From positions 104,417 through 168,416 of the forward strand of contig NZ_AOIN01000056.1 in the NCBI RefSeq assembly GCF_000337135.1: a stretch of 64,000 nucleotides of DNA, in the 5' to 3' direction. Source of the DNA: Natrialba chahannaoensis JCM 10990. GTDB lineage: Archaea; Halobacteriota; Halobacteria; Halobacteriales; Natrialbaceae. Below, one piece after another: positions 24,966-28,481 of this stretch. Position 1 is the first letter of the stretch. The number at the start of each line of letters is the position of its first letter. Under the pieces are notes generated by a model. That model was not told the origin of the DNA. It was given only the letters and a program-made list of their open reading frames with translations, and made no database searches. The position numbers were made by a program, and so were the translations under genes.

Positions 24966-25449
24966 CACACTTCTCGCGCCTCCGGTCGCGGTGTATAGCG
25001 TCGACAGAACGACCGTTCTTCGGGAGTTCGTTTTTCTACGCGCTGGTGTTGGGGCTGGTAACGTTGATTTCGTACCACGCTAGCAACGTACAGCCGAGGA
25101 GCACGGCGAGGCCGGCTAATCCTGCAACGAGAACGATCTGGACAGCACGATCGTGCCCAAAGCGCGAAGCGAAAACACTTCAGGTGATCGATGGCTCCGA
25201 CCGAATCTGGTATGGTCATTGTAACTGGAAAACCTCTACACTCGTGAGACACCGTTCTACAATTCGGAACTCGCTCGAACTCGCTCCGGCGAGTTCCTCG
25301 TCGCATTCATCCTGTTCACCGTTATATTGCTTAGCATCAATCAGATCGGTTGTGTATTTCCGACTGTCGGGTATAGAATTTCAATCTATACCATACCCAA
25401 AATCACATCCAATAGTATTAAATACCAATACAATAAATGGTTGCTTGAA
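24966..25449. other. Intergenic; left boundary of the A+T-rich insert
   Basis: No gene with a start codon. A minus-strand frame between stops, 25036-25179, encodes a transmembrane-like stretch (IVLVAGLAGLAVLLG...LLAWYEINV) but lacks any start, so it is at most a remnant. From about 25320 the base composition drops to A+T-rich, with many ata/tat/aat triplets. This marks the left edge of the foreign insert and contains the promoter of the next gene. Confidence 0.45.
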
Positions 25450-26649
25450 ATGCCGAAGAAGACAAGAGACAAATTGGGTATGAAGCGTTCAGGTGTTAGT
25501 CGACGGTCACTACTTGCGTCATCGTCAGCATTAGTGACTTACGGTCTTATTTCAGGATCTGCGGTTGCAAATAATGGCTTGGAAACAACAGTGCGACTGC
25601 GAGGTTCAAAACAAACCCCTCTATCAAAAAAGGAGATTGAAAAAGGACGTGCAAACGCGATTGAAAAATATCTCAATGATGGTGAATTAAGTGAATACGG
25701 TCTCAAACGCCTTGATAATCTCTCTGGCAATGTTGATTTGGTGGGGTATAATTTGGTAATTGGTGAACACGGGCATGTTTCTGAGAATTATGTGGAGTCT
25801 ATCTCGTCAACTGTTTTATCAAATGATGAAGATGCGAAAGAAGACGTTGGATTGAATGAGAAACGCGCTGCTGATATCGCTGATGAGATGTTATCTGAGA
25901 CGCTTGATAAACAAAGCCGTATGAAGCAGTCTCAGGTAACATCTAGCAATACTAATGATTTCGATTATGATTGGGATGATCTACGACACTTGCCAGGTAA
26001 CGGTGTCGATGTTTCTCTTTGGTCGGAACAACCTCATTATGGAAACATCAAGCGAATGCATGAGGTCCGTGGGATTCCTGACGAAAGTGATCAATATGCA
26101 GTTCGTGCAGAGGTGAAGATGAATTCTGGCTATAACCTTTGTAATAACAGGGACGACAGTGATTACTGCCGTACTGCAAGTGCAGAATACCGGAATAGGA
26201 ATTGCGAGATTGAAGTAGACTGGGGAAGTGGGAGTAATATTGGTGCGGGTGATGTTGCCCCTCAAAACGAAATCGATGATGGTACACAAGTCACATTCGG
26301 TGGGTCTATCACTGATAGTTCTATTGGAGCTAATTATTCTATTAGTGAAAGCGCAAACACTCTTGAAGAGACCTCTGACACAAGCACAGGGGTCGCTGCG
26401 CATTATGTGAGTCTTCGCCCAACCACATCAGCCGGTCGAACTATCGCACAGTTCCAATCCTATAGCACAGGTGAAGTAGAAGGCGATTGTACCTGTGGGA
26501 AAGACATAGTTGATGTTACAGTGAGTCCGAGATGGGATAAGCCTCTTAGGCCATATCGTTCACCGCCGTATTGGAACCGCAACCCCGATGAGGCGGACGA
26601 TGTCACGGATACGCTTGCTACATATTGTGGTTGCTATCCGGGAGGATAA
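25450..26649 (+). CDS. Tat-exported protein of unknown function
   Basis: 399 residues from ATG 25450 (ATG 25480 is also reasonable). The signal reads SRRSLLASSSALVTYGLISG and is followed by SAVA, a twin-arginine export signal. After it come a lysine-rich helical region (residues about 45-150), a Trp/Tyr/Asp-rich middle, and a C-terminal half with seven cysteines, two pairs of them close together (DCTCG and YCGCYPGG at the end). A proline/tyrosine-rich tail precedes the last Cys pair. Codon choice (AGA, ATA, TTA, AAT) is unlike the neighbours, so it was probably acquired. I know no family; a halocin-like or surface protein is possible. Confidence 0.7.
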   Translation: MPKKTRDKLGMKRSGVSRRSLLASSSALVTYGLISGSAVANNGLETTVRLRGSKQTPLSKKEIEKGRANAIEKYLNDGELSEYGLKRLDNLSGNVDLVGYNLVIGEHGHVSENYVESISSTVLSNDEDAKEDVGLNEKRAADIADEMLSETLDKQSRMKQSQVTSSNTNDFDYDWDDLRHLPGNGVDVSLWSEQPHYGNIKRMHEVRGIPDESDQYAVRAEVKMNSGYNLCNNRDDSDYCRTASAEYRNRNCEIEVDWGSGSNIGAGDVAPQNEIDDGTQVTFGGSITDSSIGANYSISESANTLEETSDTSTGVAAHYVSLRPTTSAGRTIAQFQSYSTGEVEGDCTCGKDIVDVTVSPRWDKPLRPYRSPPYWNRNPDEADDVTDTLATYCGCYPGG

Positions 26650-26746
26650 GTACGCCAGAGATATGGAAGGAAAACTTCGGATACGCTTGCTGCATACTAG
26701 GCCACCTCAAATAATCAAATTACAAAAACAGTACTTTTAACATAAT

Positions 26747-26917
26747 ATGAAAGGATTGAAGTTAGTGATATTTGGGCTTCAGATGTCTCTTATAGGGGCT
26801 CTTTTCCCAAATGAGATACATTGGGGGTTTGTATATTTCGGGATGATAATTTCTATTATTGGGATCGTTATCAATGATCGCAATGGGGAATCACATGATA
26901 AATCAGGAGATGATTAG
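26747..26917 (+). CDS. 56-residue two-helix membrane protein
   Basis: MKGLKLVIFGLQMSLIGAL begins a short protein with two hydrophobic helices (about 4-20 and 26-43) joined by PNEIHW, and an acidic polar tail ending KSGDD. A T/A-rich element (cttttaacataat) lies just upstream. It has the same A+T-rich composition as the exported protein 97 bases before it and the same direction. In layout it resembles immunity or membrane-partner proteins of secreted toxins, but nothing in the sequence proves that. Confidence 0.6.
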   Translation: MKGLKLVIFGLQMSLIGALFPNEIHWGFVYFGMIISIIGIVINDRNGESHDKSGDD

Positions 26918-26925
26918 CTATAGGG

Positions 26926-26944
26926 GTCTGGCGAATCGCCAGAC
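26926..26944. other. Perfect inverted repeat after the small membrane gene
   Basis: gtctggcga-a-tcgccagac, nine bases on each side of a single central base, nine bases after the stop of the 56-residue gene. With no loop it is more like a protein-binding site than a terminator hairpin. It could also be the end of a mobile element. Confidence 0.4.
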
Positions 26945-27351
26945 TGTGCGGACTTTGGCCGTCAAATCTAGGAAGGTAAAGCGGGAAACGGCGGATGCTC
27001 TATTCCAAAATTTCCCCGTTTCACTAGAGAATAATGACGATGGCTAAAAGTGCTGTTGGTGGTTGAGGCGAATCCACCGCCACCTTCCAGGACGGGGTTT
27101 CGTCTCCATAACCGGTAACAACCCGAGGAATCGGCACAATCCCACCAGTGAAGCGGAAGATTTGTGTCGTAGGCAACCGATCTTCTCATTTCAACTCCTT
27201 TGATTTAGCGACCTATCCGACGGCGTCTAGTGATTCAACAGAACTCCTGAGACGTCGTTGTATGAATTCATCACGTTGGGTCAATCATTTGGGTAAGAGT
27301 AATTCGAAGATCACCAAGCAGGTATCTGGGAGCCCTATAATCGCGAGAAAG
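26945..27351. other. Gene-free right part of the insert
   Basis: About 400 bases in which I see no convincing gene. A plus frame (26859-27047) and a minus frame (26968-27189) are open but have no conserved look. Composition returns from A+T-rich to mixed around 27060. The stretch ends at the first partial copy of the tRNA-Ser 3' end. Confidence 0.4.
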
Positions 27352-27580
27352 CGGTGGGGATGGGATTTGAACCACGGTCGGAGCAAAGCTCCTCCCTGAT
27401 TCAAATCCCAACGTATCCGCTTTGCTCCTCACGTATTGTTCGTCGCAAAAGCGGTGGGGATGGGATTTGAACCACCTGAACTTCGGTCGCAGTGCTCCCT
27501 CGTTCCGTAATTCAAATCCCAACGTGACGTGTTCCGCTCACAGACTCCTCGCTTCGCTCGTCGTTGTTGTTCGCGGAAAA
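27352..27580. repeat. Two partial copies of the tRNA-Ser 3' end (att-like)
   Basis: The 22 bases at 27581-27602 (acceptor and T arm of tRNA-Ser, cggtggggatgggatttgaa and two more) recur exactly at 27352-27373 and 27452-27473. Each copy carries tgggatttgaa, later followed by the perfect inverse ttcaaatccca (27361-27371/27400-27410 and 27461-27471/27511-27521), so each can fold as a hairpin. Repeated tRNA 3' ends on the 3' side of a tRNA gene are the usual footprint of site-specific integration by viruses, plasmids or islands. Confidence 0.8.
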
Positions 27581-27664
27581 CGGTGGGGATGGGATTTGAA
27601 CCCATGAGGCTTGACAGCCACCTGCTCTCAAGGCAGGCGCGTTGGGCCGCTCTGCCACCCCACC
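27581..27664 (-). tRNA. tRNA-Ser (UGA)
   Basis: Minus-strand class II tRNA: acceptor GGTGGGG paired with CCCCACC, discriminator G, anticodon stem CTGC/GCAG region with loop CTTGAGA (anticodon TGA, reading TCA), long variable arm with GGCT/AGCC stem, and T arm ATGGG-TTCAAAT-CCCAT. CCA is not encoded. Its 3' end faces the A+T-rich insert. Confidence 0.93.
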
Positions 27665-27704
27665 TCACATGCGTCTTCCTCGTGCGTTCAAAAAGGGTTA
27701 TCGG

Positions 27705-28481
27705 TTACGACCGCTCGAGTTGCTCGTCATCGCCAACCGAAAGTCCCAGGTCAGACACGACCGCTGCTGTCGCCTCTGCATTCAATCGCCCGGCCTGTTC
27801 GCGGGCTTCGAGCATCGCGAGCGTCGCGCACAACCCCGTCTCGGTCCCGATCGTCGGGAGCATCGGTGCAAATCCGATTCTGTGGTCTGCAGCGGCTGCC
27901 TGCGTCGCAAGCGTCGATACCGAGGGCGTCTCGTAGGCGTCGGTGAAATCGATCGGGTCGCTGAAGCCCGCGAAGTACGCCCGGCCGTTCGATGACGGAC
28001 CGATCACGGTGTCGTGGCGGCGCAGCGACATCGCCGCCCCGTCGATTTCGGTCCGGGCGACCAGCGGCACCGTCGGCTCGAGTACCCCCACGGCGTCAGC
28101 CCCCTCGCGCTCGAGAAGGTGGGTGACGGTGTTGCCGATGCGCGCTGCGTGTGTGGAGCCGACCTGGCGTTCGAATCGGACGGGGGTAGTGTCGTCGTCT
28201 GCACTGTCGGCAGCGGCGACCGACTCGAGTGCATCCGCAGCGAGCGTTCGGACTGCGGCTTCGGTGTCGGCGTCTTCGTCGACGAACTCGGCGGGAAGTG
28301 TGTCCTCGTCGCGGTAGTTGAGCAGTACCTCGCCGCCGCTTTGCTCGGCAGCGCGGAGTGTATCGGTGACGGCGGCTTCGTAGAGCGCGACGGCGTCGGA
28401 GTCGGTGAATGGTGTCGATTCAACGAGCGACGACAGCACGAGTCCCGGGCGCGGCGGGTCGACGGGAACGACGACGATCAT
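27705..28481 (-). CDS. DUF2064 glycosyltransferase-like protein
   Basis: 258 residues with a nucleotide-sugar-transferase (GT-A) fold of the DUF2064 type: MIVVVPVDPPRPGLVLSSLV at the start, then a linker, then VGVLEPTVPLVARTEIDGA and HDTVIGPSSNGRAYFAGFSD, where the bacterial relatives have a DTP/GP motif. The metal-binding DxD is not obvious (LEPTVP replaces it), so catalysis is uncertain. It stands alone next to tRNA-Ser. Confidence 0.65.
   Translation of the reverse strand: MIVVVPVDPPRPGLVLSSLVESTPFTDSDAVALYEAAVTDTLRAAEQSGGEVLLNYRDEDTLPAEFVDEDADTEAAVRTLAADALESVAAADSADDDTTPVRFERQVGSTHAARIGNTVTHLLEREGADAVGVLEPTVPLVARTEIDGAAMSLRRHDTVIGPSSNGRAYFAGFSDPIDFTDAYETPSVSTLATQAAAADHRIGFAPMLPTIGTETGLCATLAMLEAREQAGRLNAEATAAVVSDLGLSVGDDEQLERS

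Follow-up and report, generated by a model that had tools for sequence, protein, structure and literature searches.

Layout of the tRNA-Ser(TGA) locus

The window, the whole 64,000-nt stretch of DNA that was analyzed, comes from contig C56 of G000, the 4.3-Mb draft genome of a haloarchaeon. It contains a complete tRNA-Ser(TGA) gene on the minus strand, followed in the sense direction of the tRNA by two hairpin-bearing units and then by a variable A+T-rich zone. The features, in tRNA sense order, are as follows.

27581..27664, minus strand: host gene tRNA-Ser(TGA) (ARAGORN; Rfam RF00005)
27600-27581, minus strand: nt 54-73 of tRNA-Ser(TGA)
27526..27580, minus strand: unit 1 spacer hairpin S, with a T-rich start and tandem G.A motifs
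27512..27525, minus strand: unit 1 inverted T arm (5' arm of the T-arm hairpin)
27474..27511, minus strand: unit 1 inner hairpin, type TTACGGAACGA..AAGTTCAGGTGG
27452..27471, minus strand: displaced copy 1 of tRNA-Ser nt 54-73 (the 22-nt identity extends to 27473)
27414..27451, minus strand: unit 2 spacer hairpin S (CTTTTGCGACGAACAATACGTGAGGAGCAAAGCGG)
27400..27413, minus strand: unit 2 inverted T arm
27373..27398, minus strand: unit 2 inner hairpin, type A (CAGGGAGGAGCTTTGCTCCGACCGTG)
27352..27371, minus strand: displaced copy 2 of tRNA-Ser nt 54-73
25049..27340, no strand: A+T-rich variable zone, containing an ORF of about 400 aa (25450-26649, plus strand)

As the original prediction had stated, 22 bases of the tRNA recur exactly: the 22-mer CGGTGGGGATGGGATTTGAACC (tRNA-Ser nt 52-73) is found at 27352, 27452, and 27581, and nowhere else on either strand of the window. 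The two partial copies have 28 identical bases in common (27348-27375 and 27448-27475). The inverse of the T arm, said to accompany each partial copy, was located at about 27400-27413 and 27512-27525. In tRNA sense, the locus folds better than any of its shuffled versions (z = -7.45, 0/100 shuffles as good). An Rfam scan of 26600-27800 returned the tRNA as its sole match, and the hairpins matched no curated family.

What the original prediction missed is that the partial tRNA-Ser copies are parts of a repeating unit, which many other tRNA genes also have behind them. When the locus was used as the query, 60 of 61 relatives gave matches, many of them not at the tRNA-Ser gene but behind tRNA genes of other kinds, and modules of both units have counterparts elsewhere. 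The unit 1 spacer has a near-identical counterpart in a same-genus genome, and the unit 1 inner hairpin type also lies behind tRNA-Leu(TAA). The unit 2 spacer is 97% identical, over 36 aligned nt, to the spacer behind tRNA-Lys(CTT) in G000, and an identical copy of the type A inner 26-mer lies behind the aspartyl-tRNA synthetase gene, aspS, of the same genome (G000:C14:51316-51341).

The content of the A+T-rich zone differs in same-genus genomes. Its ORF has no confident match in Pfam or NCBIfam; it is itself A+T-rich, begins with a twin-arginine-like start (SRRSLLASSSALV), and matches DUF6277 weakly. A second genome of the genus, G003, retains at the same place only a stretch matching the 3' part of the ORF.

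Anatomy of the unit

Read in tRNA sense, the unit runs from the gene end (nt 54-73) through a T-rich start and spacer hairpin to the inverted T arm and the inner hairpin, after which comes the next gene end; this layout is constant across units. Altogether, 108 distinct units were recovered from 27 tRNA species. They are non-coding and in most cases 76-176 bp long. Identity of the copies starts at nt 52-54 and stops at or just past nt 73, in about half of the units exactly at nt 73. The junctions are mostly G^TTC and not fully uniform: a number of targets read G^TTTTG or are found at other positions, and aspS has a second junction point at ..CTT^GCGAGATC.

The inverted arm is specific to its target. 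With up to three mismatches of 12 allowed, it matches the T arm of its own tRNA in 92 of 107 units and in none of 107 shuffled bodies, and the own tRNA is a better fit than the average other tRNA in 97 of the 107. For type A, one among several inner-hairpin types and the only one to which the arm-pair statistics apply, 85% of the first ten positions pair across 78 distinct arm pairs; this falls to 69% (maximum 74%) when partners are shuffled and to 25-56% when the arms are slid. Among these pairings, G.T pairs outnumber A.C by 101 to 21. Arms match in the same way where the target is not a T arm (TTCCCGCG of aspS, TTTTG, GTCACGCG, and others). Folding predictions favor the sense strand over the antisense strand by a mean of 4.5 kcal/mol (75 units against 15, p = 3e-11). 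The arms match their own targets and the sense strand is predicted to fold better; therefore, the arms follow the sequence of the target gene, and the folding strand should be the tRNA-sense strand, whether as RNA or as single-stranded DNA.

In most units the inner hairpin contains tandem G.A steps, which recur, together with C-GNA-G triloops of the GCGAAGC type; these features resemble extraordinarily stable DNA minihairpins. Several displaced T arms have a single base inserted or altered in the T loop (TTCACAATCC, TTCGTAATCC, TTCAAAATCC; loci L065, L110, L130, and L034), possibly as repair scars at a cut site or through decay.

Distribution and variation

In G000, 18 of the 44 tRNA genes are followed, at distances of up to 1.2 kb, by copies matching their own nt 54-73; on the upstream side this holds for one gene, because of a tandem tRNA-Asp pair. 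Slightly different criteria give 17/44 tRNA genes in G000 and 25/45 in the same-genus G003, and the copy number differs between the two genomes at 14 of 36 comparable tRNA species. The hairpin pattern is order-wide: 245 of 293 Halobacteriales genomes have it, as do 80 of 87 genera, with no match in the reversed control. Outside Halobacteriales there are scattered single matches, which are taken as background, the reversed control itself having matches in two genomes. A scan for exact type A modules in one genome from each of 84,980 species found 56 loci, all of them haloarchaeal.

The modules are common to different genes and genera. Behind different tRNA species, inner modules are near-identical over 38-59 nt and spacers over 28-36 nt; an inner module at different genes reaches as much as 100% identity over 41 nt, and identical inner or spacer modules stand behind unrelated genes both within one genome and across genera.

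Sister species differ in which sites are occupied. The proposed comparison of relatives for empty and filled sites bore out the expectation of such variation, with tRNA 3' ends empty in some sister species and filled in others. At tRNA-Arg(CCG), G003 has a filled site where that of G000 is empty; at tRNA-Arg(GCG), a unit lies directly behind the gene in G000 and none is there in G003, with flanks that match. At tRNA-Ser(TGA), where a constant set of three copies would have spoken against the original prediction, G000 has two units, genome G004 one, G001 one that is truncated, and G003 a single unit in which the unit 1 spacer is followed by the unit 2 inner hairpin. Because of this variation among genomes, deletion between direct repeats probably also acts at the arrays. 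Repeat-mediated deletion is on record in haloarchaea and would likewise leave clean empty sites (PMC3119063). These comparisons use one genome per species, so the direction of change (insertion or deletion) is an inference; insertion, not repeat-mediated deletion alone, would seem to lie behind most of the site differences.

Hairpin scans of halovirus and plasmid records (IMG/VR, INPHARED, and PLSDB) found no free or viral form of the units. Most arrays are without any gene, and no recombinase is tied to the units. These results count against the cassette account given below.

aspS and other protein-gene hosts

About nine in ten hosts of the type A module are tRNA genes. Among the others is aspS, whose product in G000 ends in LFPRDRQRLSP*. 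The type A 26-nt inner hairpin lies downstream, along with three more in-frame copies of the last codons, each preceded by a hairpin. Across 29 genomes, 35 displaced copies of the C-terminal end (DRQRLSP*) were found in 17, with as many as four copies at one gene. A control run counted 37 copies downstream and none upstream, antisense, or in reversed or shuffled sequence.

It is plain that the displaced aspS ends still make coding sense, as would be expected if every one of them had formerly served as the working end. Where their codons differ from those of the working end (163 codons), 147 differences are synonymous and 16 nonsynonymous against 23% synonymous expected, an excess inflated by the calling of copies at >=6/8 (at least six of eight) matching residues. 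G001 has no displaced end at aspS. Over the 24 nt compared, the working 3' end of G001 is identical to the last displaced copy of G004, and the flank that follows this working end is the same as the flank after the last displaced copy in G000. The inverted partner fits the upstream copy better in 28 cases and the next copy in 5 (p = 8e-5), and thus a cassette would consist of a gene end, its inverted partner, and the inner hairpin.

The type A module is also present at the 3' end of a protein gene (..RFEPV*) adjoining a thiolase gene in Natronorubrum texcoconense and at the 5' ends of two protein genes. The type A hairpins that carry copies of protein-gene 5' ends do so in reverse orientation; one of these genes is a HAD-like gene of Halomarina halobia (L314, L342).

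Proposed cassette mechanism

The account that we consider probable is that the tRNA copies are old 3' ends, displaced as one small mobile cassette after another arrived with a new end for the gene. Each cassette would bring a replacement host-gene end (nt 54-73 in a tRNA), a spacer hairpin, an inverted arm complementary to the target, and an inner hairpin, and would enter near G53^T54 (G^TTC). The working gene end would then come from the cassette, with the former end left downstream, and repeated entry would build an array of displaced ends. Units would probably be lost by recombination between the 20-nt direct repeats. The mobile form may be a folded single strand of DNA or RNA, and the agent may be a recombinase or nuclease belonging to the host or acting in trans.

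This family of gene-less cassettes is apparently undescribed so far. The searchable literature, which mostly leaves out subscription journals, contains partial tRNAs and integrase elements and no description of the unit, its arms, or the aspS ends. With slightly less than even confidence, we suggest that the units are a previously undescribed class of mobile DNA: hairpin cassettes without genes, about 50-180 bp long, which would insert at G^TTC close to where tRNA genes and a few protein genes end, provide that end anew, acquire an inverted arm copied from the target, and form haloarchaea-wide arrays through structure-directed recombination.

If this account is true, the 3' ends of many haloarchaeal tRNA genes and of aspS are routinely swapped by tiny mobile cassettes, which would be an unrecognized source of variation in tRNA flanks, of partial tRNA annotations, and of gene-end evolution. 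The displaced aspS ends would be a readable record of earlier working ends. The match between arms and targets, in turn, suggests that recombination or repair proceeds by a mechanism in which the target is copied.

Alternative explanations

A homing-type endonuclease of the PDDEXK_5 family could instead drive the process by cutting the T arm or 3' end of the tRNA, with repair that duplicates the end and inserts or copies the unit, leading to tandem amplification. Among the best 30 PDDEXK_5 loci in Halobacteriales, 26 lie directly behind tRNA genes, all of them tRNA-Asp or tRNA-Pro and many between two complete tRNA-Asp copies, and several PDDEXK_5 genes have tRNA copies, either full or of 20 nt, on their flanks. 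In G003, the tRNA-Asn array includes a 720-bp cassette encoding a 153-aa PDDEXK_5 (PF11645) protein, and the single PDDEXK_5 gene of G000 sits behind its tRNA-Asp array. The sole relative found in the PDB is 2OST, which is I-Ssp6803I, the homing endonuclease of a tRNA-fMet intron. Amplification of tRNA segments by a homing endonuclease is known for SegB of phage T6 (PMC13096335). Against this origin, the gene is present in only 65 of 146 genomes and therefore cannot be the whole story; it is mainly at tRNA-Asp, -Pro, and -Asn, whereas the units are at 27 tRNA species and aspS; and the tRNA sequence is the same after insertion, so that a target inside the tRNA would stay unprotected. As a full explanation it is unlikely. 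As a candidate, PDDEXK_5 in or beside some arrays (tRNA-Asp, -Pro, -Asn) is nonetheless the best enzyme lead.

Two arrangements occur around tRNA-Asp. The G000 array (G000:C8:218400-220000; L097, L188) has two complete tRNA-Asp genes and several displaced ends. In one haloarchaeal family, the PDDEXK_5 gene lies between two complete tRNA-Asp copies (L155 and L159 in G213 and G181; L198-L206), an arrangement that resembles segmental duplication of the SegB type.

Mobility could also be dispensed with altogether. Local template switching together with unequal recombination would make the repeats, and selection for RNA structure, serving transcript ends or processing, would keep the hairpins. The forward/inverted/forward order is the expected product of two template switches, the sense strand of the units folds best, a T-rich tract stands at the start of the unit, and some tandem units are identical, for which plain duplication could account. 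Against such local events stand the identical inner and spacer modules that unrelated genes have behind them, within single genomes as well as between genera, and the displaced aspS ends, which use other synonymous codons and are not copies of the present end. We regard this origin as quite unlikely.

The original prediction read the partial copies as scars of tRNA-targeted integrases, which would make them serial attR footprints of tyrosine-integrase elements once integrated at the tRNA 3' end and since lost. In its favor, the 3' ends of tRNA genes are classically used as att sites, the integration of haloarchaeal elements leaves partial tRNAs behind (PMC7921747, PMC3119063, PMC8371274), and G003 has integrase genes near three tRNA genes. 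At tRNA-Gly(TCC) of G003, a tyrosine integrase lies in an element of about 3 kb (L229, G003:C1:3344774-3347993) with a 42-nt copy (nt 30-71), and a second integrase element, at tRNA-Glu(CTC), likewise has a 42-nt copy. Genuine integrase copies in the genus thus start in the anticodon loop (nt 30-32), in contrast to the 20-22 nt from nt 52-54 that are found in the units. The same small unit stands behind both ends of the Gly element, so the unit either predated the element or came with the tRNA end. The units, moreover, have common hairpin modules and target-matched inverted arms, and they are also at the ends of aspS and other protein genes. Most units (76-176 bp) are too small to hold an integrase gene between two copies. 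At the window locus there is none between the copies, no integrase lies in the window, and the far-side copy looked for near 25.3 kb does not appear there (best match 13/20; null mean 12.7). This argues strongly, though not absolutely, that the 20-22 nt copies differ in origin from integrase copies; integrase families with shorter att sites exist (PMC8371274). Of the repeated integration and loss at one site that had been proposed, repeated insertion and/or loss holds up, and the integrase as its agent does not; integrase footprints are a very improbable source of the arrays, and displacement by small cassettes is the preferred reading.

Comparison with known systems

The cassettes were compared with several known systems, and for none of these were all the defining features found in them. 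Tyrosine-integrase elements that target tRNA genes (such as SNJ2-like proviruses and haloarchaeal integrative genomic elements) are alike in their use of the tRNA 3' end and in the partial copy on the far side. In contrast to those elements, the units have copies of 20-22 nt from T54, spaced about 100-150 bp apart without an integrase, and they have hairpin modules, inverted target arms, and protein-gene sites.

Partial tRNAs beside complete ones have been recorded in Haloferax gibbonsii as tRNA remnants (PMC7921747). They are probably, in part, the same phenomenon as the hairpin units; that account, in its available text, mentions neither a hairpin unit nor matching arms nor targets in protein genes.

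Haloarchaeal MITEs, PATEs, and small mobile repeats are similar in being non-coding mobile repeats of 80-500 bp with palindromes (PMC3119063). Element-specific terminal inverted repeats or near-terminal palindromes, with a target duplication that is fixed or absent, characterize those elements, whereas the units have no fixed terminal inverted repeats; both their arms and their direct repeats consist of sequence from the host gene and so vary with it. Casposons, which have a Cas1 transposase and a tRNA target duplication, would fit a 20-nt duplication at tRNA ends but leave the inverted arms unexplained, and the units are too small for a casposase gene. Two further candidates were set aside: insertion of the IS200/IS605 type, since such elements leave no direct repeat, and archaeal tRNA-intron (BHB) splicing, since the internal loops are 2x3 or 1x1 plus 1x2 and not two 3-nt bulges.

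Homing elements at tRNA genes (I-Ssp6803I/PDDEXK_5 and SegB) have in common with the units the tRNA target, segmental amplification, and, in some cassettes, PDDEXK_5 itself. Unlike homing elements, most units have neither an endonuclease nor an intron.

Integrons recombine through an imperfect folded hairpin that has an asymmetric internal loop, a preferred strand, and a G^TT junction. Integron cassettes and CALIN arrays with attC sites are like the units in their tandem small modules and in imperfect hairpins with an asymmetric internal loop. The predicted folding preference of the units for the sense strand, as DNA or RNA, and their mostly G^TTC junctions may also be comparable; some targets differ. 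The main text of the account of archaeal integrons does not mention Halobacteria (PMC9668308). The fixed R (RYYYAAC/GTTRRRY) and L boxes of attC are absent from the units, in which the outer stem instead follows the target (GTTCAAATC, TTCCCGCG, TTTTG, GTCACGCG). In contrast to integron cassettes, the units have their junction inside the host gene, replace its end, and usually carry no cassette gene.
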